Shown here: piece by piece, positions 9,379 through 42,258 of the stretch
Layout: each line of letters opens with the position of its first letter
Numbering within the stretch: the stretch's first letter is position 1
Origin: a virus
Length of the DNA stretch: 64,000 bases
IMG/VR virus record: IMGVR_UViG_3300017971_000023
Location: 1 to 64,000 of that record
Reading direction: 5' to 3' (one strand)
Program-made: the position numbers and the translations under genes
The notes under the pieces: model-generated
The model's input: the letters and a program-made list of their open reading frames with translations, nothing else
What the model was told of the DNA's origin: nothing
Databases searched by the model: none

Positions 9379-10311
9379 TTAAATAGTAAAGCCTAAATCT
9401 GCTTTGATTGCCCTCGCTTCTTCTATGGTTAACTCTCCAGGATCGAGAGCCTTTTCCAAAGTCAAAATTTCTACCCTCTTCTTTACGAGCGGAGCCAGTT
9501 GCGGACCCAGCCTTTTTGCTGCCCGTTTTCCAGCTCCCTTATCTTTCCTTGGATTATCGAATAAAATAAATAAGCGTCTAATATTTTTCTTTTTAAGAAG
9601 TAATATCTGACCGAGATTGACTTGTGTACCGAATGAGCAAATCGCGCCGTCGCCCATTTTCATTGCATCCATTGGGCCTTCTACGAGTATTGCATCGCCT
9701 CCAACATCAACTGTATCCAGATTAAATATCAGGTCTTTTCTGTCAAGTAAACATTCTTTTTTTGATGCCATCTTGTAAGGAGGTTCCTGCTGACCTGTGA
9801 TGTCACGTGCTGTGAAGCTTACAAGCCGACGATCTATAAATACAGGTATGATGATTCGAAATTTATACTTACCAAGATTATGTACAGCACGGAGTTTATA
9901 TTTTCGGATTGTCTTTCTTGGAGGGAAGCCACGCTTGCGAAGATATTCGATGTGAAATTTAGGAAAGTGAATTGTGGATTCTTGGGGAAGAGAGATAGAG
10001 ACGTTGCGTTTTACTTCTTCTGATGAGGTATTACTTAAAGGAGGTGCAAGATCAATATCCTCAACCCCAAGAGTTTTGATAACTCGTTTAGCTTCTTGTG
10101 TAGATATATCAGCTATTTTGGAAACTAAATGAGTTATAGAATGACCACCACAGCGCCAACAAAAGACTCTAAAGTCCTTTAACCTAATGCCGAGGTGGTT
10201 TGAGTTATCATCACAAAATAGACAAGTTATGTTTATCCATCCGTGTGAAACATTTTTACCTTCGGTCCAGTATTCTATACTGTATTCATCTAAGAAGTCA
10301 AGTATATCCAT
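9379..10311 (-). CDS. DNA primase (zinc finger plus TOPRIM)
   Basis: 310 residues. The N-terminal zinc-binding domain has C30, C33 and C51, C54 (CLFC...CWRCGG), as in DnaG and gp61-type primases. The TOPRIM core shows LVEGPMDAMKMG (about 205) and an acidic FILFDNP motif (about 250). It makes RNA primers at the fork, presumably with the helicase encoded nearby. Its start overlaps the stop of the upstream gene (TAATG). It is shorter than bacterial DnaG (about 600), as is usual for phage forms. Confidence 0.9.
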   Translation of the reverse strand: MDILDFLDEYSIEYWTEGKNVSHGWINITCLFCDDNSNHLGIRLKDFRVFCWRCGGHSITHLVSKIADISTQEAKRVIKTLGVEDIDLAPPLSNTSSEEVKRNVSISLPQESTIHFPKFHIEYLRKRGFPPRKTIRKYKLRAVHNLGKYKFRIIIPVFIDRRLVSFTARDITGQQEPPYKMASKKECLLDRKDLIFNLDTVDVGGDAILVEGPMDAMKMGDGAICSFGTQVNLGQILLLKKKNIRRLFILFDNPRKDKGAGKRAAKRLGPQLAPLVKKRVEILTLEKALDPGELTIEEARAIKADLGFTI

Positions 10312-13413: not shown

Positions 13414-14283
13414 CTATATGTCCAGTTTCCTTTTAAGCGTGAAATCTGGTACCTGATGAAGTTTTTTCATTATTGTTTCAAGTTGGGAACCTAAGTTCTC
13501 ACGGAACTCCTCGTTTCCTTTTAAACGATCAACGCTGGCGCCTTTCATTTCTTTCTTAAGACGCGCCATAACCATTTTAAGTTTTTTCTCGTCAACATTG
13601 TCGCGCCATAACTCGTCCCATCGTTTCATAAAAAGTTCGATGGAGTTAAAAGTTCCAGCATTAATTTTTCCACTTTCACATTGACTTGAAAGCTTTTTAA
13701 TTCTCTTGTGAAGCATGTTGCCGACAAGATTAATGGTCATTTCTTCCATCTGTTTTACCATGCCGCGAAGTTTTTCAGTTTCACGCTTATAAACTGATGG
13801 AGACAAAACTTTTGTGGATTTGTCCGGAATGCTGATTTGAAAGAAATTCCATCTGAAGTAATACTTCTTGCGAAGTTCATCTTTGGTGGGATAATTTTTT
13901 GAATTGTAAAATGTAGGATACTTTGATTTGAAGTCATTTTTCATTTTGTCATACTTCTTCAGAAATTCCTCGAGCCGTTTTGAATTCATTTCTTCAAATT
14001 TTTTAAATTCTTCATCGAGGTAATTGACATTTTCCTTGCTTACCCACCAAACACCATCAATTGGAAAAGGCAAAGAATTTCTTTGTAGCAATCCTTTTGC
14101 GCTTCGCCTTACAGTTGCAAGATCTTTAAGAAGCGTCTTGTCTTCAATAAGATCTTGCATTGCCCTGACGATTTCCTTTGGAAGTTCCTTCCCGAGTTTA
14201 CTTTTTGGCAAACGAATACTTGCATCCCATCGGCCAGCTCTAAGTTGGCATAGAACGCCTTCTTGTAGTTGTTCTGGTGTCAT
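13414..14283 (-). CDS. DUF3150-like protein
   Basis: 289 residues, helical. The N-terminus (WDASIRLPKSKLGKELPKEI) and the following SLPFPIDGVWWV segment resemble DUF3150 proteins, which in phages and bacteria occur near AAA ATPases. The middle (about 100-150) is a probable coiled coil. A Ycf46-like AAA ATPase is encoded two ribozyme units upstream. The start follows GGAGG by 9 bases. Family assignment is tentative and the function unknown. Confidence 0.55.
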   Translation of the reverse strand: MTPEQLQEGVLCQLRAGRWDASIRLPKSKLGKELPKEIVRAMQDLIEDKTLLKDLATVRRSAKGLLQRNSLPFPIDGVWWVSKENVNYLDEEFKKFEEMNSKRLEEFLKKYDKMKNDFKSKYPTFYNSKNYPTKDELRKKYYFRWNFFQISIPDKSTKVLSPSVYKRETEKLRGMVKQMEEMTINLVGNMLHKRIKKLSSQCESGKINAGTFNSIELFMKRWDELWRDNVDEKKLKMVMARLKKEMKGASVDRLKGNEEFRENLGSQLETIMKKLHQVPDFTLKRKLDI

Positions 14284-14317
14284 AGTAATATCCTCCTTGT
14301 GTTGTAATTATATTTCA

Positions 14318-14387
14318 TTGGCTACCTCATCAGTAAGCAAGAGCCAACCTTGCTTAGAATCCCCGGAGTCCGGGGAGTTTCGGATTA
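14318..14387 (-). ncRNA. Hammerhead ribozyme 1 (type II)
   Basis: In the transcribed direction, CC-GAAA (14383-14378) opens stem III, which has a GC-rich 7-bp core and one C-U mismatch next to the A-U pair. Then come H17 = C (14357), an 8-bp stem I UAAGCAAG/CUUGCUUA, CUGAUGA (14333-14327) and GG. Cleavage is predicted between 14357 and 14356. Loop I (GUUGGCU) pairs with GCCAA at 14322-14318. It sits between the gene at 14388 and the DUF3150-like gene. Confidence 0.93.
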
Positions 14388-14669
14388 TTATAAATCTTCT
14401 TTGTAACCTTCGGCGAGTAGTATTGCTTCTGATTCTTTTCTTTCTTCCCTTGCAGCGTCTCCAATGAGTGGTTTTCCTTCAAATAGTTCACCCAATTTCC
14501 AGTAATATAGTGGTTCTGTTATATCTTTAATTAAATTTTGCCACAAATCCCATGGAAAACGAACATGAAGTTTTCTACCCTTTTTGTCCGTAAGATGGAG
14601 GACAACTTTTTCTCCTCGCCGAGCCTTTAAACCACGGTATTTCAAGATGTTAATTCCCTTCGCTGACAT
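14388..14669 (-). CDS. Unknown protein, 93 residues
   Basis: Basic N-terminal part (ILKYRGLKARRGEKVVLHL) with beta character, then a helical acidic C-terminus. The stop codon abuts hammerhead 1. It shares a ribozyme unit with the 76-residue gene upstream (11-base gap). Not recognised. Confidence 0.6.
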   Translation of the reverse strand: MSAKGINILKYRGLKARRGEKVVLHLTDKKGRKLHVRFPWDLWQNLIKDITEPLYYWKLGELFEGKPLIGDAAREERKESEAILLAEGYKEDL

Positions 14670-14680
14670 TTATTATCTCC

Positions 14681-14911
14681 TTATGGCCAGAAATCACAGC
14701 CTTCTTCTACGAGTCCATGGATGTCAATTCCACCAATTCTATCTGTGGAAATTCCGTTAATGATTTTGATATTTCTCATTAACTTTTCCATTGTAAATAC
14801 TCGTGGGTTTTGGATTAGACAAATGACTGCAACTTTTCGATGTAGGTCACTTGCCCATTTTTCTCCAAGGTTTTCAATTGCAGAATCCACAAAGTTTTCC
14901 ATAATGTACAT
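14681..14911 (-). CDS. Unknown protein, 76 residues
   Basis: The start at 14911 follows the operon's standard site GGAGGATTAATT. The sequence is mixed helical (NFVDSAIENLGEKWASDL) with a possible winged-helix-like pattern. First gene of the unit released by hammerhead 2. Not recognised. Confidence 0.55.
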   Translation of the reverse strand: MYIMENFVDSAIENLGEKWASDLHRKVAVICLIQNPRVFTMEKLMRNIKIINGISTDRIGGIDIHGLVEEGCDFWP

Positions 14912-14943
14912 AATTAATCCTCCTATAATTTGAATTAATATTA

Positions 14944-15011
14944 TCAGGCTACCTCATCAGTGATGCTTGCCTAAGGCACCAGAATCCCCGCAGTGCGGGG
15001 AGTTTCGGATT
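14944..15011 (-). ncRNA. Hammerhead ribozyme 2 (type II)
   Basis: CC-GAAA at 15008-15003. Stem III is UCCCCGC/GCGGGGA with the same C-U mismatch as copy 1, and H17 = C (14982). Stem I is UGGUGC/GCAUCA, then CUGAUGA at 14960-14954. Predicted cut 14982/14981. Loop I UUAGGC pairs with GCCUGA (14949-14944). Confidence 0.93.
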
Positions 15012-16193
15012 TTAGTCATTGGTTACTGGTTCAACCTCGCGAAGGATGTAATGATCTTCATCTTCGTTTTTGGAAAGGACAACGATTACTTCAGCGCCGA
15101 ATTCCCTGGAAAGCTTATAGATAACTCTTTTTGCTTTCCGCTTCGCCCTTTTTTCTTCAAGGGAAAATTGGGACTTGAGCATATCCACAATTTCGCCGAA
15201 TTCGGCACCATCCGGACCAGTGATCATCTTTACTACTTCGGCAGGTTGCATTCCGGATTTAAAACCGAAACGGTCCTTTTCCACTTTCTCCCGTCGTTTG
15301 ATTTTCCGCTTTTCCTTGGAAGGCTTTTTATCTCGGCGAGTGATTTTGCGCTTTGACTTTTTGTCTTCCGTTTTCTTCTTCCGGCGAGTGATTTTGCGCT
15401 TGGGCTTTTTTGGTTCGGGCTTGTCTTCTTTCGGCTTCCAACTTTTGCCGTCATAAATATGGATAACTTCATTTATGACAAGTTCATCGCCTTTTTGAAA
15501 CTTTCTTGTCGAAGAGTTTTTCTCCACTTTTTTCTTCGAACCTTTTTTCTGTGGATCTTTTTCGGCAATGATTTGTGGAGGTACCAAGCCAGCCTCTTCG
15601 TAGGCAGCTGTTAATGCCTCCTTGCAAGAAGAGATAAATCCAACTGGAACGCTTTTGTTAACGTCCGTCCATCTAATTTCGAGGTCATTTAGGAAACCTA
15701 CTGCAAGATCGACAAGAGAACCTGGAATTGATTCGAAGAAGACGCGCCTGGAAGGTTTATGATAAATGTTAAAACCTTTCGCAGTTTCTTGGGAGACAAA
15801 ATCAAATTCAAATTCTGTTCCTTTTTCCTTCTTCTTTTTCTTCTTCTTGCTGTGTTGGGTTACTTTGTTATCAGTTTGCTTCTTTTCCAGATCCTTAATA
15901 CTACCCGGACCGACCTTTCCATTGTTCTGTTTTCCTTTTGCGACGGGTAAGCCGGAAGGTTTCGTATCGTCATCATCCTTAACTCCGGCATCCATAGGGA
16001 TTTTGGGTTGTTTCCCGGAATACTTGACTTCCTTGTGAGCCTTGCATTTTGCGCAAGTAACATCCATGGCGCCAAGGTCCATCGCGACATCAACATTTGT
16101 CATTCGCTTATCGCATAGAGCAATACCACCTTTCAAAATAGCGTGAATGACTTTTCCTTTTTTCGATTTTCCATAACCAATTACTGTACTCAT
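15012..16193 (-). CDS. Large basic protein with zinc site, ITRR repeats and C-terminal domain
   Basis: 393 residues. The N-terminus has a likely zinc site (ALCDKR and TCAKCKAH, about 25-55). The middle is a folded domain (about 125-215) followed by a long basic linker with KRKITRRKK, KRKITRRDK and KRKIKRRE (about 268-310). A C-terminal domain (about 315-390) has a winged-helix-like pattern. It probably binds nucleic acid, given its charge. It is followed at once by hammerhead 2 and preceded closely by the AAA ATPase gene. No family recognised. Confidence 0.65.
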   Translation of the reverse strand: MSTVIGYGKSKKGKVIHAILKGGIALCDKRMTNVDVAMDLGAMDVTCAKCKAHKEVKYSGKQPKIPMDAGVKDDDDTKPSGLPVAKGKQNNGKVGPGSIKDLEKKQTDNKVTQHSKKKKKKKEKGTEFEFDFVSQETAKGFNIYHKPSRRVFFESIPGSLVDLAVGFLNDLEIRWTDVNKSVPVGFISSCKEALTAAYEEAGLVPPQIIAEKDPQKKGSKKKVEKNSSTRKFQKGDELVINEVIHIYDGKSWKPKEDKPEPKKPKRKITRRKKKTEDKKSKRKITRRDKKPSKEKRKIKRREKVEKDRFGFKSGMQPAEVVKMITGPDGAEFGEIVDMLKSQFSLEEKRAKRKAKRVIYKLSREFGAEVIVVLSKNEDEDHYILREVEPVTND

Positions 16194-16218
16194 TTTTGAT
16201 CCTCCTTCGTTTTGGGTT

Positions 16219-17625
16219 TTAAACGTCTAACTTTCGTTTGCCGTTTATGGGTTGAAGTGTTTCTGCTGACAAGCAGCGAGTTTTAGCCCATTTTCTTAGC
16301 TCGGTGATTTCTTCCCCTTTTGTAATTATTTGTGGAATAATAAATTCCCGAGCCTTATTTAAACTCATACCGCGCATGTCGGCGAGTGTGACGAGTGCTT
16401 CTACTTCACCACCAGTAAAGTCTTTCATTTCGGGGTATTGTTCTTTCATCAGGTTTGGATTTAACTTATTACAGTAATGATCCATAATCTTTTTTCGCAC
16501 CTTGTCTGTTGGTAGATCGCAGAAGAATGGTGTAGTATCCCATCTTCCAGGCCGAAGATATGGAGCAGGGATGCCATTGAAGCTATTTGCTGTTCCGGCT
16601 ATATATACTCCTTTCGGTCTATTTTGAAAGAAATCCAACCACGCGCCAGTTGCTCTAACTGTTGTACCACTATCCAAGTCGCCCGATCCACCAGCACCAC
16701 TAAATTGCTTTTCAAATTCATCAAATAAAGCGTATACTTCACCAGCCGATCGAAGTACTTCTTGGACAGTTCTAATGTTTTGATCTGTTTCCCCTTGCCA
16801 CTTGGAGTAAAGAGCGCCCATTTCAATTTTAATACCAAATTTCTTGAACTCTCCAACTATCGCCATCTGTAGAACGGTCTTGCCACAGCCACCGGGACCT
16901 ATAAGCATATTTCCTTTTGCCTTTATGTTGTCAATCGACTCTGCCACGTGTTCTTTATAGCGTTGATATCCAACGATATCGGCGTACTTGTAGGTATGTG
17001 GAATGACTTCCATAAATCCAGTTTTCTTGATAGCCATGGCACGATAGTCATTAATAACTTCGACATCGTAGCAATTCTTTTCAATAACAGACAGCGCAAG
17101 CACTTGTCCAAGTTCTGTCCGAGTTAAACTTTTGCAGGATTTTACTACTCTATCCTTGTCTTTGCCCTCAGGCATTTTATACCCATTGGGAAGTTCGTGT
17201 TGCATAACCGATATTATCTCGTTATCGTCTGGAAGTGGCATATCCATAACAATAAAATCCTTGGACAACTCTTGAGGAATTTTCTGTTGTGAGCTAACGA
17301 CGACTATTGCAGATCCTTTACTGGAGACGATTGGCAACGCATCCTGTATAAGTTGTACGACCTGAGCCTTGTCGTGAAACCAATGAAAATTGTACATGAA
17401 TAGAACAGTACAATCTTCAGAAGTAATAAATTGCTCAAGCACTGGAATTGGATTTGCTGCCCTTGTAATACTCCATTCTTCTACTTTGTATTCTATTCCA
17501 TCTTTTCTACGGAAAGACTTTATCTCATCATAAATTTTTTGCCTTACACGGTTTGGTTCAAATGTATTGATCCAAAACGCAGGAAAACCAGCTCTTAATA
17601 GATTAATGAGTCTGTCAGTTTTCAT
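16219..17625 (-). CDS. AAA ATPase, Ycf46-like
   Basis: 468 residues from the ATG at 17625 (MKTDRLINLL), which follows GGAGGATTTATT. The open frame upstream is only the translated ribozyme. The N-terminal half is a degenerate AAA-like domain. The C-terminal half has Walker A GPGGCGKT (243-250), Walker B ALFDEFEK (about 293-300) and a sensor/arginine-finger region ending LRPGRWD. This arrangement matches Ycf46-type ATPases of cyanobacteria, plastids and phages. Ycf35-like and DUF2997-like genes lie just upstream in the operon, the classic neighbours of Ycf46. The biochemical role of the family is poorly known. Confidence 0.75.
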   Translation of the reverse strand: MKTDRLINLLRAGFPAFWINTFEPNRVRQKIYDEIKSFRRKDGIEYKVEEWSITRAANPIPVLEQFITSEDCTVLFMYNFHWFHDKAQVVQLIQDALPIVSSKGSAIVVVSSQQKIPQELSKDFIVMDMPLPDDNEIISVMQHELPNGYKMPEGKDKDRVVKSCKSLTRTELGQVLALSVIEKNCYDVEVINDYRAMAIKKTGFMEVIPHTYKYADIVGYQRYKEHVAESIDNIKAKGNMLIGPGGCGKTVLQMAIVGEFKKFGIKIEMGALYSKWQGETDQNIRTVQEVLRSAGEVYALFDEFEKQFSGAGGSGDLDSGTTVRATGAWLDFFQNRPKGVYIAGTANSFNGIPAPYLRPGRWDTTPFFCDLPTDKVRKKIMDHYCNKLNPNLMKEQYPEMKDFTGGEVEALVTLADMRGMSLNKAREFIIPQIITKGEEITELRKWAKTRCLSAETLQPINGKRKLDV

Positions 17626-17656
17626 AATAAATCCTCCTATAATTGAGTTAATGTTT

Positions 17657-17722
17657 TGGGTTACCTCATCAGTATACAAGTTCCCATCTTGCATAGATCC
17701 CCGCACTGCGGGGATTTCGGCT
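17657..17722 (-). ncRNA. Hammerhead ribozyme 3 (type II)
   Basis: GCC-GAAA at 17718-17715, stem III UCCCC-GC.../GGGGA with A15.1-U16.1, H17 = C (17696), perfect 8-bp stem I UAUGCAAG/CUUGUAUA with loop AUGGGAA, then CUGAUGA (17672-17666) and GGU. Predicted cut 17696/17695. Loop UGGG pairs with CCCA (17660-17657). The stop codon of the gene at 17721 overlaps the 5' strand of stem II. Confidence 0.95.
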
Positions 17723-18065
17723 ACTCACCATCATCATCATCGTCATCGTAGTCATCATCCAAGTCAATAAATTCGTTAATTGATTGTTTAGATTTTTCCA
17801 CTGGGTTTACTTCTACATTTTTACTTGCCCAGACGCAGACGACTTTTACTCCACTCGTATGTCTAATATCGGTATATGAAGTCAATGGATTTTTTTCGAC
17901 TGTTTTCAGTTTTCTACCTGACATGTAATTCCCCCACACTCTTGGTAGTGGAGTTTTGTCAGGTTCGTGTTCTGACCGATTTTTTTCAATGTAGTCAAGA
18001 ATCGCGTTCTTTGCTTCATTTGATGTTAGACGAAATTCTAAAATTTTCTTTTCTTTTTTGTACAT
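17721..18065 (-). CDS. Unknown protein, 114 residues
   Basis: The start is the ATG at 18065 (MYKKEKKILEF), after GGAGGATTTATT; upstream in-frame sequence is ribozyme. The core (LEFRLTSNEAKNAILDYIE) is alpha/beta and partly resembles the first half of the unknown protein at 10528-10875 (both have a helix, LPRVWGNYMSGRK or SFIGDLLGGGK, then a VKVVCVWAS or VFIFRDS strand). The C-terminus is an Asp run. Function unknown. Confidence 0.6.
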   Translation of the reverse strand: MYKKEKKILEFRLTSNEAKNAILDYIEKNRSEHEPDKTPLPRVWGNYMSGRKLKTVEKNPLTSYTDIRHTSGVKVVCVWASKNVEVNPVEKSKQSINEFIDLDDDYDDDDDDGE

Positions 18066-18096
18066 AATAAATCCTCCTTGTAAGTAGTTATAGATT

Positions 18097-18161
18097 TGAC
18101 TTGCCATCATCAGCGCACAAGTTGTCATCTTGTACGAATCCCCTCTATGAGGGGATTTCGG
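18097..18161 (-). ncRNA. Hammerhead ribozyme 4 (type II)
   Basis: GCC-GAAA at 18159-18156, stem III UCCCCUC/GAGGGGA, H17 = U (18137), 8-bp stem I CGUACAAG/CUUGUGCG, CUGAUGA (18113-18107), one extra U, then GGC pairing with GCC as stem II. Predicted cut 18137/18136. Loop UGAC pairs with GUCA (18100-18097). Confidence 0.93.
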
Positions 18162-18527
18162 CTACTCATATTCCATAATAAGTTTCTTGTCGCCGTTTGG
18201 GAGTGTTTCGATGAAGTAATTTTGGACTTCATCTAAAGGAATGATGTCGACAGTTCGTGCCAGATCATACGCTTGGAAAACTTCTCCAAGATGACCCATT
18301 GTTTCAGGCGCTGAACCCCAGTGATCGTAGTATACTTGACCTTCGGCTGAAATTGCGATTGGATACTTCCAGCCTTTAAGGTGAACGGCAAACGCACAAT
18401 CAACATAATTGTTGCCGTAAAGATGGACACGATTTGCTTCAATTACTTCATGTCCATACTTTCTGCATATGTTTCGAAATTTGTTCGGGTCATTAACCTT
18501 TTGACCGTATTCAGAATTATGACTCAT
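18162..18527 (-). CDS. Ycf35-like (DUF1257) protein
   Basis: 121 residues beginning MSHNSEYG. The pattern (short N-terminal helix, CAFAVHLKGWKYPIAI strands, VYYDHWGS, then a YxLA.. helix) resembles Ycf35/DUF1257 proteins, which also begin MSH. The assignment is strengthened by the DUF2997-like and Ycf46-like genes in the same operon. Function of the family unknown. The start overlaps the stop of the upstream gene. Confidence 0.55.
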   Translation of the reverse strand: MSHNSEYGQKVNDPNKFRNICRKYGHEVIEANRVHLYGNNYVDCAFAVHLKGWKYPIAISAEGQVYYDHWGSAPETMGHLGEVFQAYDLARTVDIIPLDEVQNYFIETLPNGDKKLIMEYE

Positions 18528-18717
18528 TTTCGATCTCCTTCCTTGGATTCCATTGGTCGCCGTAAAGTTTTTTTACGGCTTCGGAATCGGCGTTTACCGT
18601 CCAGTATGTAATGGTGCCGTTAATAAAGTCAAAGACTGGTGTAGTTATTTTGCGTGGAAAACCAGCCTCGCAGAAAGGGCAATCCTGGCCAAAACACTTG
18701 ATATATCTGTTCTTCAT
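18517..18717 (-). CDS. Unknown small Cys-containing protein, 66 residues
   Basis: CFGQDCPFC (about 8-16) suggests a metal site. The start follows AGGAGGCAATT. It lies between the DUF2997-like and Ycf35-like genes, overlaps the latter by 11 bases, and so is co-translated with them. Not recognised. Confidence 0.55.
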   Translation of the reverse strand: MKNRYIKCFGQDCPFCEAGFPRKITTPVFDFINGTITYWTVNADSEAVKKLYGDQWNPRKEIENES

Positions 18718-18726
18718 AATTGCCTC

Positions 18727-18933
18727 CTATCCGCAATGCCCTTCTGGCAGGCCATCTGAAAGTTTTACTACATCTCCAACTTCGTAATAGGAATCTTTCA
18801 GTCTTGTTTTCATTATGCCAAATTCTTTGGTAAGGAATCTTGTTTTTTCTTCACATGCGGGACCCTTGAATCCAAAGGCTTCGGCAGACTTCGAGCCATC
18901 TTTTCTGAAAATTACTTCTACTCGTTTTTTCAT
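18727..18933 (-). CDS. DUF2997-like protein
   Basis: 68 residues. The start MKKRVEVIFRKDGSKS followed by AFGFKGPACEEKTRFL is the characteristic pattern of DUF2997 proteins (strand, G-F-x-G-x-x-C, helix). In cyanobacteria such genes sit beside ycf35 and ycf46, as here. Function unknown. First gene of the unit released by hammerhead 5. Confidence 0.7.
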   Translation of the reverse strand: MKKRVEVIFRKDGSKSAEAFGFKGPACEEKTRFLTKEFGIMKTRLKDSYYEVGDVVKLSDGLPEGHCG

Positions 18934-18978
18934 AATTAATCCTCCTATAATTGAGTTAATAAATTTGAATTAATATTA

Positions 18979-19041
18979 TCAGGCTACCTCATCAGTAATA
19001 CTTGCCCAAGGTATTAGATGCCCTCTACGAGGGCATTTCGG
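18979..19041 (-). ncRNA. Hammerhead ribozyme 5 (type II)
   Basis: CC-GAAA at 19041-19036, perfect 8-bp stem III (UGCCCUC/GAGGGCA plus A-U), H17 = C (19017), 6-bp stem I UAAUAC/GUAUUA, CUGAUGA (18995-18989), GG. Predicted cut 19017/19016. Loop UUGGGC pairs with GCCUGA (18984-18979, with G-U pairs). Stem III bases differ from neighbouring copies but still pair. Confidence 0.93.
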
Positions 19042-19051
19042 ATTGTTGACT

Positions 19052-19504
19052 TTACTTTGACGGAAACTTATACTGGATAATATACTTTTGAACAAATTCC
19101 ACGGGAAGAGCAATGTTCTTTGGATCAGGACTGCCGAGAATTGTTTTTCTTATACTGTTTAACCATCTTTCAATAAGTGAATCCAATGCATCTTTAAGTG
19201 CTTTGTGGGCACTGTTACGGATATTTGCAGCAATCATAATTTGAAAGAAGCACCGAACATAATATGGAACATCTTTTTTTGTGTCGTTGAACAATCCTTT
19301 TTTACTCATGACGCCTGTTGCAGCATCATGAATCTTGTCTCCGCAAAGATCGGAAAGAAGATCAGAGTCGTTGTAGTTATCATCTCCTTTTGCTTCATTT
19401 CCATTTGCTATATCACCGCAAGCGCAGGGAATCCAGCTTAGAATTTCTCTTGCGTGCCATTCAATTTCCGTCTTGTCTTTTTCTGTTAAAAGTTCTTGAG
19501 TCAT
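19052..19504 (-). CDS. Unknown protein, 150 residues
   Basis: Mostly helical (LTEKDKTEIEWHAREILSW, AHKALKDALDSLIERWL) with a CACGD segment near residue 25. It is the sole gene between hammerheads 5 and 6. The start follows GGAGGATTAAAA. Not recognised. Confidence 0.55.
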   Translation of the reverse strand: MTQELLTEKDKTEIEWHAREILSWIPCACGDIANGNEAKGDDNYNDSDLLSDLCGDKIHDAATGVMSKKGLFNDTKKDVPYYVRCFFQIMIAANIRNSAHKALKDALDSLIERWLNSIRKTILGSPDPKNIALPVEFVQKYIIQYKFPSK

Positions 19505-19537
19505 TTTTAATCCTCCTATAAGTAGTAATTAATAAAA

Positions 19538-19598
19538 CAGCTACCTCGTCAGTATAGCTTGCTGAAGGCTATATACTGGGCCAAAGCCCAGTTTCGGA
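19538..19598 (-). ncRNA. Hammerhead ribozyme 6 (type II, CUGACGA core)
   Basis: CC-GAAA at 19597-19592, stem III CUGGGC/GCCCAG, H17 = A (19574), 6-bp stem I UAUAGC/GCUAUA, core CUGACGA (19552-19546). Position 7 of the core is known to vary, so C is tolerated. Predicted cut 19574/19573. Loop CAGC pairs with GCUG (19541-19538). Confidence 0.92.
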
Positions 19599-19880
19599 TT
19601 AGTATTCAAATACTTTGTGAGTCAAAACGTACCAGCCAAATGACGTCCATCTATCTTCTGTTGGCCTCCATCCTTTTGGACGGTCGAATGAGTTAAGAAC
19701 GATGTAGTTGTCGGGATATGCTTTGCTGAAGTCTTCTGTATATCTCATAGTAAAACCAATTTTTGCTGAATCCCTTTCACTTGCCGGATACAGACCATCC
19801 CATCTAAGCATATCAATTGCAAAAACGACTTCATTTCTTAAGGGTTTGACTGTAACAACGTGACGCCATCTTTTTGCCAT
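19599..19880 (-). CDS. Unknown protein, 93 residues
   Basis: Aromatic-rich with several Trp (RWRHVV, RWDGLYP, WTSFGWYV). Sole gene between hammerheads 6 and 7. The start follows GGAGGATATTACG. No family recognised. Confidence 0.55.
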   Translation of the reverse strand: MAKRWRHVVTVKPLRNEVVFAIDMLRWDGLYPASERDSAKIGFTMRYTEDFSKAYPDNYIVLNSFDRPKGWRPTEDRWTSFGWYVLTHKVFEY

Positions 19881-19911
19881 CGTAATATCCTCCTTGTAAT
19901 AAAGTTATTTT

Positions 19912-19977
19912 TTAGGCTACCTCATCAGCGGCACTTGCCTAAGGTACCGGAACTGCCCCAATGGGGCAGGTTTCGGA
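19912..19977 (-). ncRNA. Hammerhead ribozyme 7 (type II)
   Basis: CC-GAAA at 19976-19971, stem III with CUGCCCC/GGGGCAG and one C-U mismatch, H17 = C (19950), 6-bp stem I CGGUAC/GUGCCG, CUGAUGA (19928-19922). Predicted cut 19950/19949. Loop UUAGGC pairs perfectly with GCCUAA (19917-19912). The stop of the tiny gene at 19978 abuts the 5' end. Confidence 0.93.
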
Positions 19978-20094
19978 TTAGAATGGAAGTAATTCGATTC
20001 CACTTTGGACACACGAGTAGAGTTTGAAAAGCATTATCCAAAGAAGACAACTAATGGGAACGGAGATAATGATAGTGCGAAGTGAGAAAATCAT
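19978..20094 (-). CDS. Small membrane protein, 38 residues
   Basis: A start ATG at 20094 follows AAAGGAGTAAAAA. The peptide has one hydrophobic helix (TIIISVPISCLLWIMLFKLY, about 7-26). The stop TAA touches hammerhead 7. It follows the 147-residue gene by 24 bases. Likely an inner-membrane miniprotein; function unknown. Confidence 0.6.
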   Translation of the reverse strand: MIFSLRTIIISVPISCLLWIMLFKLYSCVQSGIELLPF

Positions 20095-20118
20095 TTTTTA
20101 CTCCTTTCTTTTTTTTAG

Positions 20119-20562
20119 CTATCTGTAGTTGATACCCATTTCTTCTTGACAGTAATCGGCGATCCAAAAATCTTTTTGTTCACCTTCCAGAAGTATTCTT
20201 TTAAATACTTCAAGAAAGTTTTCTGTTGTTCTATACCATACGCCTTTAGAACCAAACATTGGACGGCTCCAATAACCTTTTTCTATAGAGCCGGATGTAG
20301 TAATTTCAAATTCGATTCCCCATGTAACATCGTGCCAATTTATTTTGACATTTTCTGGTCCGGGACACCCACACATATCTTCTTCACCAGCTGTAAACCC
20401 GTACATGAAGCCGATTTCAGCTTCACCCTTTTCATAATGGGTTGGATCTGCTTTGTTGTATGTACCGGAATGACTGGAACCGTGGGATTTCATTTTTTCG
20501 ATAAAAAGATCGACAATGTTGTCCTGACTTAACTCTACTTTTGGTAATTCAATTTCATTCAT
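20119..20562 (-). CDS. Unknown protein, 147 residues
   Basis: Acidic alpha/beta protein with CGCPGPE (about 64-70) and several Trp. First gene of the unit released by hammerhead 8, with the standard GGAGGATTAATT site. Not recognised. Confidence 0.55.
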   Translation of the reverse strand: MNEIELPKVELSQDNIVDLFIEKMKSHGSSHSGTYNKADPTHYEKGEAEIGFMYGFTAGEEDMCGCPGPENVKINWHDVTWGIEFEITTSGSIEKGYWSRPMFGSKGVWYRTTENFLEVFKRILLEGEQKDFWIADYCQEEMGINYR

Positions 20563-20581
20563 AATTAATCCTCCTATAATT

Positions 20582-20646
20582 TAGGTTACCATCATCAGTG
20601 CGTAGATTCCTATTCTACGCAGACTGCCCCGAAGGGCAGTTTCGGC
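20582..20646 (-). ncRNA. Hammerhead ribozyme 8 (type II)
   Basis: GCC-GAAA at 20643-20640, stem III CUGCCC/GGGCAG capped by a UUCG tetraloop, H17 = C (20622), perfect 8-bp stem I UGCGUAGA/UCUACGCA, CUGAUGA (20598-20592), extra U, GGU. Predicted cut 20622/20621. Loop UAGG pairs with CCUA (20585-20582). Confidence 0.95.
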
Positions 20647-20823
20647 TTAACCCCATTGTCTTTTTCTGTGAGCGAGAACTCTTTCGCGGTGATGCTTATA
20701 ACAATATTTCGGTCGATTTTGTGGTTCTTTTCTGGTCACAAGATTTGACTTGATTGGTCGACCGCAGTCAAAGCACCTGACGTTTTTGTCTCGAACTGTA
20801 AAATGAAAAGGTTTCTTTGCCAT
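20647..20823 (-). CDS. Small zinc-finger protein, 58 residues
   Basis: CFDC (17-20) and CYKHH (41-45) give a C2-CH zinc finger. The ends are basic (HRKRQWG at the C-terminus). The ATG at 20823 follows AGGAGGTGAAGTAA. The stop overlaps the 5' strand of stem II of hammerhead 8. It may be a small nucleic-acid-binding or host-takeover protein. Confidence 0.65.
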   Translation of the reverse strand: MAKKPFHFTVRDKNVRCFDCGRPIKSNLVTRKEPQNRPKYCYKHHRERVLAHRKRQWG

Positions 20824-20839
20824 TTACTTCACCTCCTTT

Positions 20840-21241
20840 CTAATCTTCGTAAGCATAATCTTCCGGTGGATACATTGGCCCTTCGCCAAAGTTATCGTAA
20901 AAGATTTCTGCGACTGTATCCGAGATATAATCACGAAGAGCATATCGGCGTGCAAATTTTTGTGAATCTTTTCCATGAAACATGACGCGCCAGACTGATT
21001 GGTCAAATAAGTCAAACAAGATGGAGAAATCTGCCCAGCCGTCATACATACCGTTTTCATCCATGCAGTGAAATGAACTACTGGCACGAATTTTTGTTTG
21101 GCTTGTCATTTTGATATTCCAGTCATTGTCAAATCCAAGTCCGTGCGGTAGTATATCCCCAATATAGTGAAGTGTTTTTTTGGTTGTTTCCAAGTCCATA
21201 ACTTGATGAAGGGAATTGAAGTCAATCGTAAAGTTTTTCAT
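20840..21241 (-). CDS. Unknown protein, 133 residues
   Basis: Alpha/beta sequence (TIDFNSLHQVMDLETTKKTL, ADFSILFDLFDQSVWRV). First gene of the unit released by hammerhead 9. Standard GGAGGATTAATT start site. Not recognised. Confidence 0.55.
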   Translation of the reverse strand: MKNFTIDFNSLHQVMDLETTKKTLHYIGDILPHGLGFDNDWNIKMTSQTKIRASSSFHCMDENGMYDGWADFSILFDLFDQSVWRVMFHGKDSQKFARRYALRDYISDTVAEIFYDNFGEGPMYPPEDYAYED

Positions 21242-21284
21242 AATTAATCCTCCTTGTAATTGTAATTATTATAACATAGTTAAA

Positions 21285-21351
21285 CGGCTACCTCATCAGC
21301 GGTTGAGCGCCACCCCAACCGGACTCCCGCTATATCTGCGGGAGTTTCGGA
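21285..21351 (-). ncRNA. Hammerhead ribozyme 9 (type II)
   Basis: CC-GAAA at 21350-21345, perfect 8-bp stem III (CUCCCGC/GCGGGAG plus A-U), GUC cleavage triplet with H17 = C (21322), 6-bp stem I CGGUUG/CAACCG, CUGAUGA (21299-21293). Predicted cut 21322/21321. Loop UGGC pairs with GCCG (21288-21285). Confidence 0.95.
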
Positions 21352-22086
21352 TTACTTTTTACTAAATTTCTCCGGGTCTTTTCGAATATCTTCGATGATT
21401 TGTGGAACAGACAAGTTATAAGGATTTCCGTCATTGTTAGCCATATGACTAAGACTGTCGAGCAAATAGGCTTGCGTGTATAAATCGCCATTTACTACAT
21501 TGGAAATGATTTCATACGCTTCGTTTAATTTTTCAATTGCTTCTTCCAACTGATCGATATCATGTTCCTTATTTACTTCTTGTGTGAAGTTCTCATCCCA
21601 GTCTTCTTCGTCATCAGGCTCGTCACCTTCTTCTTCAATTTCTACAACATATCTCATATAATCATAACCTTGTGTGTTGACAAAGTACTCGGTTCCGTCC
21701 ACGCATTCATAGATAAAGAATTCGGGAGTTTCTTGCAGAAAACTTTTTGTAAATAAATATGTAGGGTCACTTTTCATATTAAAAAGTTTTTCGCAGTCGT
21801 ACTTGCACAGAAAAAATTCATCGGGAATATCAAACGAACTAACAGTAGCGGAAACATCTTCCCTTACAACAGCTTTTCTTGTGTAATTGAAGGTGTCAAA
21901 AAGATTAATATTCTCTTTACTTGCGAAATCACCTTCAATTACTTGGATGCAAAAGGGGCAATCAACGTCCCTTATGTCTGTTGACCATCGTGACTTCCGC
22001 GAGTTCAAACCAAGTAACAAGTTGTCACAAACAATTTCTTTTCGATCATCTTTAAGACGCATTAGATGTGTAAAAAGTTGAGTCAT
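21352..22086 (-). CDS. Unknown acidic protein, 244 residues
   Basis: DCPFC (about 44-48) lies in the N-terminal third. The rest is acidic, with an Asp/Glu-rich segment (about 155-180) and a C-terminal helix pair. Sole gene between hammerheads 9 and 10. Not recognised. Confidence 0.6.
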   Translation of the reverse strand: MTQLFTHLMRLKDDRKEIVCDNLLLGLNSRKSRWSTDIRDVDCPFCIQVIEGDFASKENINLFDTFNYTRKAVVREDVSATVSSFDIPDEFFLCKYDCEKLFNMKSDPTYLFTKSFLQETPEFFIYECVDGTEYFVNTQGYDYMRYVVEIEEEGDEPDDEEDWDENFTQEVNKEHDIDQLEEAIEKLNEAYEIISNVVNGDLYTQAYLLDSLSHMANNDGNPYNLSVPQIIEDIRKDPEKFSKK

Positions 22087-22118
22087 TTTTAATCCTCCTA
22101 TAATTTGAAGTTAATAAA

Positions 22119-22180
22119 CAGCTGCCTCATCAGTACGACTTGCTGAAGGTCGCAGATCCCCTCATAGAGGGGATTTCGGC
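22119..22180 (-). ncRNA. Hammerhead ribozyme 10 (type II)
   Basis: GCC-GAAA at 22177-22174, stem III UCCCCUC/GAGGGGA, H17 = C (22155), 6-bp stem I UGCGAC/GUCGUA, CUGAUGA (22133-22127), then GGC, which pairs with GCC as stem II. Predicted cut 22155/22154. Loop CAGC pairs with GCUG (22122-22119). Confidence 0.95.
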
Positions 22181-22420
22181 TTACCCGAGTGGCGGAATGA
22201 CAATAAAATCCGTTTCATCAATTTTCATTTTGTTCCATTCGCTGTAATAACGTACGAGATCATTTGAACCACGAACACGATCCTTTGTTATCCAAATTTC
22301 TATAACATCTTCATTTTGGACAAGCAGGATGAAGTCATCGTTCATTATCTCGCTTATGTTGGAAACATAAGTAATGAAACGAAATTCCACGCGCCGATTT
22401 CCAAATTCTACAGTATGCAT
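22181..22420 (-). CDS. Unknown protein, 79 residues
   Basis: Beta-rich (HTVEFGNRRVEFRFITYV, DFILLVQNEDVIEIWIT). It starts 9 bases after the upstream gene's stop, with AGGAGGTCATC before the ATG, so it forms a two-gene unit with that gene. Not recognised. Confidence 0.55.
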   Translation of the reverse strand: MHTVEFGNRRVEFRFITYVSNISEIMNDDFILLVQNEDVIEIWITKDRVRGSNDLVRYYSEWNKMKIDETDFIVIPPLG

Positions 22421-22429
22421 GATGACCTC

Positions 22430-22771
22430 CTATCCAATTTTTACAAAGTTTTTTGTTAACCACTCGTAAGAGTTAACTCTTGACATGTTAAGAGCAAAGG
22501 AGATTGCCTCTTCTGGGCAGCCGAGCGTTTTCGTAAAAGTTTTTTCATCATCTTCTTCCCAGTCACTTTGTGAAATAAATATTTGAATTACTGGACCATC
22601 GATGACGAGAATTCCGCCGTATGTGATTGTTCTTTTTACTGTAAGGTTCCATGGGCATGATTTTTGCCTAATGACTGTGATATCTTCCGTTGAAATAAAC
22701 GGATATTCTGAATTACATCCAGCGAAGCCGTCCCAGTCACCATGCTCTTTTGAAAAAGGCATAATTTGCAT
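22430..22771 (-). CDS. Unknown protein, 113 residues
   Basis: Beta-rich middle (TVKRTITYGGILVIDGPVIQ) and a helical C-terminus. First gene of the unit released by hammerhead 11, with GGAGGATTTAAAA before the ATG. Not recognised. Confidence 0.55.
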   Translation of the reverse strand: MQIMPFSKEHGDWDGFAGCNSEYPFISTEDITVIRQKSCPWNLTVKRTITYGGILVIDGPVIQIFISQSDWEEDDEKTFTKTLGCPEEAISFALNMSRVNSYEWLTKNFVKIG

Positions 22772-22801
22772 TTTTAAATCCTCCTTGAAGTTATAAGTTA
22801 T

Positions 22802-22868
22802 AAGGTTACCATCATCAGTATATAGGTTCCTATCCTATATAGATCCCCTCATAGAGGGGATTTCGGCT
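22802..22868 (-). ncRNA. Hammerhead ribozyme 11 (type II)
   Basis: GCC-GAAA at 22864-22861, stem III UCCCCUC/GAGGGGA, H17 = C (22842), perfect 8-bp stem I UAUAUAGG/CCUAUAUA, CUGAUGA (22818-22812), extra U, GGU. Predicted cut 22842/22841. Loop AGG pairs with CCU (three pairs, the weakest pseudoknot of the set). Confidence 0.93.
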
Positions 22869-22872
22869 TATC

Positions 22873-23121
22873 CTAATTGAAATAATTTGTTTCGAATTGA
22901 AATAACTCGTTTCGCCTTTTGCGAGCTAATCTTGCCAGCCTTTTTTCGTTGACGATCTTTGCCATCTGCCGAAAGGCTTCAAGCTTTTTCGCACTTTTGA
23001 TTTTGTTGATTCTTTTTTCAAGTGCATCAACGTCCATACTGCAGAATCGAAACAATTCGTGTTCCAACATTTTCTCAGTAACATTGAGAGCCAAAAGTTT
23101 TTGAATTTGTAATGAAGTCAT
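22873..23121 (-). CDS. Unknown helical protein, 82 residues
   Basis: Strongly helical and basic (VDALEKRINKIKSAKKLEAF, NEKRLARLARKRRNEL). Sole gene between hammerheads 11 and 12. GGAGGATTAAAA site. Not recognised. Confidence 0.55.
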   Translation of the reverse strand: MTSLQIQKLLALNVTEKMLEHELFRFCSMDVDALEKRINKIKSAKKLEAFRQMAKIVNEKRLARLARKRRNELFQFETNYFN

Positions 23122-23156
23122 TTTTAATCCTCCTTAGTTATAGGTTTACAAGTTAA

Positions 23157-23217
23157 TGATTTGCCATCATCAGTGCACAAGTTATCATCTTGTGCAGACG
23201 CTTTCACGTTTCGGCAA
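23157..23217 (-). ncRNA. Hammerhead ribozyme 12 (type II), directly after a terminator
   Basis: UUGCC-GAAA (23217-23209) pairs with GGCAA as a perfect 5-bp stem II, the longest of the set. Stem III is short, ACGU/GCGU with a GAAA tetraloop. H17 = C (23197), 8-bp stem I UGCACAAG/CUUGUGCA, CUGAUGA (23173-23167), extra U. Predicted cut 23197/23196. Loop UGAU pairs with AUCA (23160-23157). Confidence 0.94.
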
Positions 23218-23254
23218 TAAAAAAGCCCCACCGACGTATAATCGATGGGGCTTT
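23216..23254 (-). terminator. Intrinsic terminator inside the early operon
   Basis: On the minus strand, GAAAGCCCCA pairs with TGGGGCTTT (23254-23246 with 23230-23222), with a further CGA/TCG inside, and is followed by TTTTTTATT. The U-tract runs into stem II of hammerhead 12. It would set a step-down in expression between the gene at 23285 and the rest of the operon. Confidence 0.8.
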
Positions 23255-23284
23255 CAAATATGGCTTTTAAGCGAGGCGAATAAA

Positions 23285-23530
23285 TTAATTAGGTATTGTA
23301 TCCGGAAGCCCTTGGGCATTTTCAAGTAGTGCTTCCATGGCTTCTATAAATTTTTCACCAGAAATGTAGTAAAAGGAATTGCAGTTAAAATCATAAATAA
23401 ACTTTTTAAGATCATTGATGTAGTTATCTTCATCGACTGCTTCTATAAGTTTTTCAATCCTTTTGTCGAAATTCATAAAATAGGAACGTATTTCTTCAAG
23501 TTGTTCTATCTTTTTTCTTTTAGAAATCAT
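23285..23530 (-). CDS. Unknown protein, 81 residues
   Basis: Helical N-terminus (KRKKIEQLEEIRSYFMNF) and acidic middle. It is alone between hammerhead 13 and the terminator at 23254. The start follows AAAGGAGAATTATA. Not recognised. Confidence 0.55.
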   Translation of the reverse strand: MISKRKKIEQLEEIRSYFMNFDKRIEKLIEAVDEDNYINDLKKFIYDFNCNSFYYISGEKFIEAMEALLENAQGLPDTIPN

Positions 23531-23561
23531 TATAATTCTCCTTTAAATCAGCCTCGCTTTT

Positions 23562-23624
23562 TGACTGCCTCATCAGTACCCAGTTGTCAGGCTGGATAGA
23601 TCCCCTCATAGAGGGGATTTCGGC
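23562..23624 (-). ncRNA. Hammerhead ribozyme 13 (type II)
   Basis: GCC-GAAA at 23621-23618, stem III UCCCCUC/GAGGGGA, H17 = C (23599), 7-bp stem I UAUCCAG/CUGGGUA, CUGAUGA (23576-23570), GGC pairing with GCC as stem II. Predicted cut 23599/23598. Loop UGAC pairs with GUCA (23565-23562). It is the first ribozyme met by the early transcript. Confidence 0.95.
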
Positions 23625-23625
23625 T

Positions 23626-23886
23626 TTACAATCCTTCTTCATCTGGATCGTAGTAATCTTTTGGATTGTGTGTTGGATCATCGAAGAAGCAATCTTCTAT
23701 AACCTTTTTGGTTGTTTCTTCTTCCAACATTGAAATTTCAAGCTTTTCAACTGCTGCCTGAAGATGGAAGATAACTTTTTTTGCTTCTTTCAGGGATAGC
23801 CTAAGATACTGATCACCAAGATAAAGTTTTATGGGTCTTGCTTTCCTTACTTCCTTGATAATCGCGTGGATAATAGTGTTTTTCAT
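23626..23886 (-). CDS. Unknown protein, 86 residues
   Basis: Basic N-terminal half with strands and helices (IIKEVRKARPIKLYLGDQYL), acidic C-terminus. It follows the first operon gene by 27 bases, and its stop abuts hammerhead 13. Not recognised. Confidence 0.55.
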   Translation of the reverse strand: MKNTIIHAIIKEVRKARPIKLYLGDQYLRLSLKEAKKVIFHLQAAVEKLEISMLEEETTKKVIEDCFFDDPTHNPKDYYDPDEEGL

Positions 23887-23913
23887 TTTTGGTGCTCCTT
23901 AGTTATTTAAAGG

Positions 23914-24192
23914 TTAACAGTCATCTTCCCAAGAACACTTTTCCCAGTCAATGTTTTTCCAAGGTTTAACGAAAGTCATTACTGTCTGACCATTTAGAAA
24001 AAGCATTGTGGAATTAACAGAACCACATTTACAGATGAACAAAGTAACTTCTGGCAAGTCATCTTCGTTATCGTTGTTATGGCAATGTTCGCCTGAATCA
24101 ACAAACTTCCCGCTATCGGCGTAGCGGTAGTGATCTTGGCACCAATCCCAGACCCACGGTTCCATGCAGTTAGGACATTTAGCTGAATCCAT
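23914..24192 (-). CDS. Small zinc-binding protein, first early gene
   Basis: 92 residues. CPNC (6-9) near the start and CKCG later, with several His, suggest a zinc ribbon. The ATG at 24192 follows GGAGGTAGTAAA. It is the promoter-proximal gene of the minus-strand operon. Function unknown. Confidence 0.6.
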   Translation of the reverse strand: MDSAKCPNCMEPWVWDWCQDHYRYADSGKFVDSGEHCHNNDNEDDLPEVTLFICKCGSVNSTMLFLNGQTVMTFVKPWKNIDWEKCSWEDDC

Positions 24193-41813: not shown

Positions 41814-42258
41814 TATTAGAGAACGATTACTTTCAGCGTTGGAAATAAGTGTTGGTAATCTTAGCTCCGTCAAAACTGTCATAAGGCGCCAGCCGTCTGA
41901 CATTGAGGAGTTGAAGACTTACGCCGCAACGCAATTGCCGCTTGTTTCGATTGTCGGAAGTCTTCCAGTTCCATTGGAGAAAAGAACTACGAGATTGAAA
42001 GGAAACATTGTAGATAAATTTGTTTCTGAACTCCGAGTGGAAAATTATTTTTACTTTATGAATCGTGTTAATCCTGACACGCAGATTTCTAATATATTGG
42101 ACGACTTCTGGGTATTGATGTATGGAGATCAAACAAGAAGCGGACTTGCTATATCCACCGATCTCGAGCCGAAAGTTGAAGTAGTAGTATGGGACCCTTA
42201 TGTTGCTTTTTCTGTTATAGCAAAAATTATTTACATTCACGGCACGGGAGGAATTTAA
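41800..42258 (+). CDS. Tail terminator-like protein
   Basis: 152 residues from a GTG that overlaps the end of the gpG-like gene. Alpha/beta pattern with TQLPLVSIVGSLP and YFYFMNRVNPDTQISNIL. The position just before the tail tube gene fits a tail terminator. Called by synteny and size. Confidence 0.5.
   Translation: MAENSIRERLLSALEISVGNLSSVKTVIRRQPSDIEELKTYAATQLPLVSIVGSLPVPLEKRTTRLKGNIVDKFVSELRVENYFYFMNRVNPDTQISNILDDFWVLMYGDQTRSGLAISTDLEPKVEVVVWDPYVAFSVIAKIIYIHGTGGI

Follow-up and report, generated by a model that had tools for sequence, protein, structure and literature searches.

What do 13 copies of a self-cleaving RNA motif do in a single gene block of a phage? The window analyzed here is a stretch of 64,000 nucleotides (nt), positions 1 to 64,000 of IMG/VR virus record IMGVR_UViG_3300017971_000023. 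The record represents an uncultivated phage of about 87 kb; it is 87,217 bases long, with a 52-bp direct repeat at its end, which suggests a complete genome. Between 14 and 24 kb, 13 type II hammerhead motifs, all on the minus strand, span 9.3 kb. Their identification as type II hammerhead ribozymes, predicted to cleave themselves, is well supported, and the best explanation is probably a processing array, in which co-transcriptional self-cleavage would cut a leftward gene block into short mRNAs.

The copies were scored with Rfam model RF02276 (Hammerhead_II; gathering score, 37 bits) and with R1, a model made for this analysis from the window's own copies. Because of that origin, the R1 scores below are no independent evidence. 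Cuts are predicted after H17, and all features are type II hammerhead ribozymes.

14313 to 14384, minus strand: cut after 14357; RF02276, 41.1 bits; R1, 59.8; C.U mismatch at 15.2-16.2
14940 to 15009, minus strand: cut after 14982; RF02276, 31.1 bits; R1, 64.8; C.U mismatch at 15.2-16.2
17652 to 17721, minus strand: cut after 17696; RF02276, 38.6 bits; R1, 78.5
18093 to 18162, minus strand: cut after 18137; RF02276, 31.6 bits; R1, 71.5; extra U before stem II
18975 to 19042, minus strand: cut after 19017; RF02276, 38.1 bits; R1, 74.8
19532 to 19598, minus strand: cut after 19574 (GUA); no RF02276 report at E≤1; regular-expression match; R1, 54.8
19908 to 19977, minus strand: cut after 19950; RF02276, 34.1 bits; R1, 64.3; C.U mismatch at 15.2-16.2
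20578 to 20646, minus strand: cut after 20622; RF02276, 48.6 bits; R1, 66.5; extra U before stem II
21279 to 21351, minus strand: cut after 21322; RF02276, 44 bits; R1, 64
22113 to 22180, minus strand: cut after 22155; RF02276, 38.3 bits; R1, 71.3
22798 to 22867, minus strand: cut after 22842; no RF02276 report at E≤1; regular-expression match; R1, 76.8; extra U before stem II
23153 to 23215, minus strand: 4-bp stem III; cut after 23197; RF02276, 26.1 bits (E=0.09); R1, 58; extra U before stem II
23556 to 23624, minus strand: cut after 23599; RF02276, 53.6 bits; R1, 71.5; first copy in the array

Every copy has the element order GAAA-stem III-UH-stem I-CUGANGA, in which loops cap stems I and III and stem II is open. 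The invariant core (C3 U4 G5 A6 N7 G8 A9, G12 A13 A14, A15.1-U16.1, and H17) is intact in all 13, as the original prediction had it, and the cut that it placed at 21322/21321 is correct by motif. Stem II consists of 2 to 3 bp of CC/GG throughout, stem I of 6 to 9 bp, and stem III of 4 to 8 bp. The claim that stems differ among copies and are complementary within each also holds: stem I forms 7.2 bp with its own partner versus 1.9 bp with those of other copies, and stem III forms 6.1 versus 2.3 bp. A covarying pseudoknot of 4 to 6 bp, an element frequent in the class though not required of it, joins loop I to the 3′ tail in all 13 copies, with pairs that vary by copy (UUGGC/GCCAA, UUAGGC/GCCUGA, UGGG/CCCA, UGAC/GUCA, CAGC/GCUG, UAGG/CCUA, and AUGAU/AUCAU). 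Its score is 11.5 with own partners and 7.8 with others' partners, and none of 20,000 permutations scored as high; across 126 ribozymes of the records compared, the score is 10.7 versus 8.2 (standard deviation, 0.18) with shuffled tails, equaled in none of 300 shuffles.

Loss of pairing in homologous phages, together with a lack of Infernal matches, had been named as refuting the prediction. Pairing is kept: in an alignment of 83 distinct ribozymes from array-bearing records, 96.4% of paired cells hold standard pairs (60.9% in shuffles) and two-sided changes number 427 (110 in shuffles), while shifting the partner by 1 to 3 columns lowers pairing to 38 to 47%; these figures lean toward structure because the alignment was fitted to the model. 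Minimum-energy folding with RNAfold recovered stem III in 13 of 13 copies and stem I in only about half; where stem I was missed, an alternative pairing was favored, mostly involving the pseudoknot strands.

A whole-window search with RF02276 placed five copies above the gathering score. The Rfam check proposed with the original prediction gave a divided outcome: in a sensitive search, 7 of 13 copies reached at least 37 bits and 11 were reported at E<0.1, while 2 (19532 to 19598 and 22798 to 22867), perfect in core and stems, went unreported at E≤1. Some of the six copies under the gathering score carry the extra U or the C.U mismatch. A structural scan returned the 13 minus-strand copies against 0.1 expected per strand per 64 kb in Markov-shuffled sequence. 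The search pattern is unspecific alone; 9 of 118 matches in bacterial genomes survived the structural scan, every one of them single. A weak, single plus-strand match at 9954 was taken as chance. The rest of the record, its last 23 kb included, has no hammerheads.

The copies occupy a fixed place among the genes. In 26 of 28 cassettes from the window phage (G000) and a divergent relative (G113; IMGVR_UViG_3300009788_000096; 95,402 bp), G12 follows the end of the stop codon of the upstream open reading frame (ORF) by 2 to 13 nt (median, 3). The window phage has 59 to 83 nt from each cut to the start codon downstream of it. In copies 17652 and 18093, the last base of the stop codon borders stem II, and the 5′ arm of the copy at 17652 to 17721 overlaps the UAG stop of ORF 17721-18065. 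In other arrays (L118, L052, L119, and the R4 family), the gap between stop and ribozyme is often 8 to 48 nt.

Both exceptions among the 28 cassettes hold an intrinsic terminator in the gap. That of the window is as follows.

23218 to 23255, minus strand: intrinsic terminator, a 15-bp hairpin and then a U tract; minimum free energy, −24.1 kcal/mol; z, −7.6

It sits between ORF 23285-23530 and the ribozyme at 23153, and its counterpart in relative L124 is just upstream of 14262. The ribozymes behind these two terminators are the only 2 of 146 in such a position, and their stem III is short, with 2 GC pairs against a mean of 5.1 elsewhere. Because stem III is short and GC-poor in the ribozymes that a terminator precedes, the exceptions are suggestive of a stem III that acts as the hairpin protecting the 3′ end of the upstream mRNA and is dispensable behind a terminator hairpin.

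The relative G113 has 15 ribozymes inside its first 14.3 kb. It and the window phage have about 55 proteins in common, the majority of them 30 to 58% identical (major capsid protein, 82%), and the two order their array genes differently. For 12 orthologous ORFs, 19 of the 24 flanks match in whether a ribozyme is present or absent (Fisher p=0.012), and orthologous ribozymes are no more similar than random pairs (0.658 versus 0.657), which together indicate that position and structure are conserved and sequence is free. One site in G000 holds the unit at 14388 to 14911 together with a ribozyme; the same site in G113 lacks them.

Arrays also occur in records without clear protein relation to the window phage, namely, G083 (12 ribozymes) and the G020 group (8), and further arrays are found in G059 (5 to 6) and G039 (5), whose proteins lay outside the comparison with the window phage. 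The G020 group led to arrays in cultured Streptomyces phages: Caelum and Spernnie (about 10 each), R4 (9 to 10), Amethyst (9), and TrvxScott (12). The R4 sites are near 41817, 44185, 45787, 46494, 47137, 48021, 48255, 48938, and 49440 of NC_019414. In the parts scanned, phiScoe2 and phiHau3, which belong to the same subfamily, have no ribozymes, and phiC31, a candidate because its early region is reported to have terminators that lack U tracts, gave no match by Rfam or R1. Among IMG/VR terminase relatives, hammerheads were present in 0 of 11 loci (contigs of 5 to 39 kb).

The genes that the window's ribozymes separate form the following block.

13414 to 24192, minus strand: leftward gene block in which the 13 ribozymes set off units of 1 to 3 genes (ORF/ribozyme map with Pfam and PHROGs)

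Most are small ORFs without assigned function, accompanied by an AAA ATPase (16219-17625) and a DUF3150 protein; the ATPase returned no relatives when used as a search query. The block is the start of a leftward run of small genes that goes into replication genes and is divergent from the structural genes. The term "early operon" in the original prediction agrees with this layout, and its "early" is a reading of position only.

In the processing array that we favor, nearly all gene units of this block have a ribozyme in their leader, which would fold during transcription and cut itself after H17. The upstream mRNA would then end, just past its stop codon, in the GC-rich stem III hairpin with a 2′,3′-cyclic phosphate; the downstream mRNA would begin with a 5′-OH, the hairpin of stem I, and the pseudoknot, and would continue through a leader rich in A and U to a strong Shine-Dalgarno sequence. 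The outcome would be about 14 short mRNAs with their ends protected and their 5′ leaders alike, so that neighboring genes would not affect one another's stability and translation, and such insulation could allow cassettes to be gained, lost, or moved. The mechanism starts from the observed sequence, structure, covariation, geometry, and conserved position of the ribozymes, and from these we infer cleavage in the cell, end protection, and insulation of genes in the window phage. The end hairpins would likewise fit the earlier suggestions that the mRNAs are separately stable and made without host RNase. Also in its favor, similar arrays recur in phages without clear protein homology to the window phage, and cleavage of tandem arrays of phage hammerheads is documented in vitro (Clostridium scindens, Azorhizobium caulinodans, and Agrobacterium tumefaciens) and, for the Agrobacterium array, in Escherichia coli as well (PMC3088659).

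Several points weigh against it. Cleavage and the transcripts of the window phage are themselves predictions from the DNA. In copies 14313, 14940, and 19908, the C.U mismatch of stem III lies one pair from the core, beside A15.1-U16.1, and in copies 18093, 20578, 22798, and 23153, a surplus U separates A9 from stem II; cleavage may therefore be slow or absent in some of the 13. The copies are also only partly independent of one another, since parts of stem III or of the leader are nearly identical in some of them. Consensus matches for internal sigma-70 promoters in the leftward block equal those in shuffles, without excess. The evidence for end protection consists of two related cases, and the ortholog flank test of 12 genes. 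The shared strand and short gaps are compatible with co-transcription of the units; the terminator at 23218 to 23255 interrupts them, and a single uninterrupted transcript is therefore not assured. The original proposal of one operon cut into about 14 mRNAs thus has good comparative support as to ribozymes capable of splitting a polycistronic RNA, and less firm ground as to one transcript; in kind, the splitting idea is not new (PMC3088659).

The fusion of ribozymes to stop codons hints at competition between the folding of a ribozyme and a ribosome terminating just ahead of it. A bacterial ribosome shields about a dozen nt past the stop codon, so one terminating on an upstream ORF might cover the GAAA and part of stem III, allow cutting between ribosomes only, and leave a ratio of cut to uncut RNA that reports upstream translation. 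Such gating is conceivable but unlikely: the median spacing of 3 nt and the stop codons at the stem II edge speak for it, yet compact phage genomes put a ribozyme directly behind the stop anyway, and the wider gaps of other arrays mean that a fixed overlap is not required. The related proposal that the ribosome hides the core of a stop-fused ribozyme, with each gene's own translation timing the separation of its mRNA, we hold to be rather improbable.

Other readings give the ribozymes different roles. Mostly decayed or idle copies might be retained as recombination landmarks for cassette shuffling, to which the reordering of genes around ribozyme boundaries between G000 and G113 and the site-specific presence of the 14388 to 14911 unit would correspond; landmarks, however, should conserve sequence, and instead the stems diverge yet stay paired around a core intact in 13 of 13, which makes this quite unlikely. 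Another idea begins with the ends that cleavage would leave, a 5′-OH and a 2′,3′-cyclic phosphate on compatible half-ribozymes, which the ribozyme or RtcB might ligate into circular or recombined mRNAs. The halves are suitably built, with stem I, loop I, and the pseudoknot in the 3′ half, stem III in the 5′ half, and an identical CC/GG stem II interface in every copy; stem II and the core alone join the halves. Searches of the array phages for RtcB, RNA ligase, and AAA_33 kinase families gave nothing above the cutoff, though, and spliced or circular products were sought and not detected by Perreault et al. (PMC3088659), leaving joining very unlikely. That the elements are ordinary terminators or protein-binding repeats is hardly credible: stem III is indeed a GC-rich hairpin just behind stop codons, but it is not followed by a U tract, and such an element would not account for the invariant unpaired core, the covarying stem I and pseudoknot, or the Rfam matches.

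How much of the processing array is new? The original prediction held that hammerheads occur singly in phages, which is wrong; clusters that include type II and flank single genes or short prophage blocks were published in 2011 together with the mRNA-splitting hypothesis, so the ribozyme class, the pseudoknot, the clustering at prophage genes, and that idea are already known (Perreault et al., PMC3088659). Self-cleaving ribozymes of bacteria are also enriched near each other and near Mu-like phage genes (PMC10085705). The 2011 clusters resemble the window in having several same-strand copies around single genes or short blocks (ORF units of 1 to 3 in the window) and the loop I-3′ tail pseudoknot. 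They differ in that the tested sets lay in fragments of about 2 kb, with three copies at Agrobacterium ardA, against 13 in 9.3 kb here (the cluster sizes in their Figure 3 are outside this comparison), and in that each window copy is fused to a stop codon and a leader. The match to RF02276 extends to core, stem order, and consensus. Synthetic insulators of the RiboJ type standardize the 5′ end of an mRNA by means of a hammerhead that cleaves itself within the 5′ leader; the window ribozymes are, in contrast, natural, type II, and repeated, and would also give the upstream mRNA a 3′ hairpin. The theta (hepatitis delta virus-like) ribozymes of gut phages are likewise self-cleaving and tied to phage RNAs but belong to another class and are linked to phage tRNAs, whereas those of the window lie in protein-gene leaders (PMC10879173). 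In the open-licence literature, figures excluded, no account was found of arrays this large and regular, although larger ones may be reported elsewhere; nor did the same search find descriptions of the fixed cassette of stop codon, ribozyme, and leader, of its persistence in phages whose genes have been rearranged, of the exception at terminators, or of the arrays of R4-like phages.

The 2011 survey described clusters with no proven role and left the role of natural bacterial and phage hammerheads open (PMC3088659). Arrays of 9 to 15 copies with fixed geometry, in phages without clear mutual protein homology, argue that their job is RNA processing of gene blocks. Because R4 (grown on Streptomyces coelicolor) and Caelum (on S. 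lividans) are cultured and carry such arrays, the idea is directly testable, and the array ribozymes are natural RNA parts for separating genes in an operon.

The ribozyme map also corrects gene calls in the cultured array phages, in which several annotated ORFs or start codons overlie ribozymes and the feature tables inspected annotate none. In R4 (NC_019414, L252), gp60.1, gp67.1, and gp75.1 overlie ribozymes (L252 4763-4846, 7126-7218, and 10074-10175), and gp72 and gp76 apparently start too far upstream (L252 8303-8833 and 10178-11074). Two ribozymes of TrvxScott stand in direct tandem with no gene between them (L256 12969-13103), and Spernnie has a similar pair (L251 5135-5263).

Variation among individual ribozymes was also recorded. 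The four copies with an extra U have distinct loop I sequences as well (AUAGGAA, AUGACAA, and AUGAUAA), and GAUGAUGGCAGCC, which resembles the feature of these copies, is present in R4. A U4C core change (CCGAUGA) occurs in two ribozymes (L124 2048-2126 and L117 12412-12470); this variant is weak in vitro, yet enough in vivo for viroid infectivity (cited in PMC3088659). In L124, where the array runs leftward and the structural genes rightward, a long stretch without clear genes separates the two (14600-16440); it contains many recurring short motifs and may be where the divergent promoter or the origin lies. In 20 of 28 ribozyme leaders (window 14284-23555 and L124 2016-14197), against 4 expected from shuffles, a UAAC motif, usually in the form UAACU or UAACC, lies between the pseudoknot and the Shine-Dalgarno sequence; other leaders have it less often (21 of 159).

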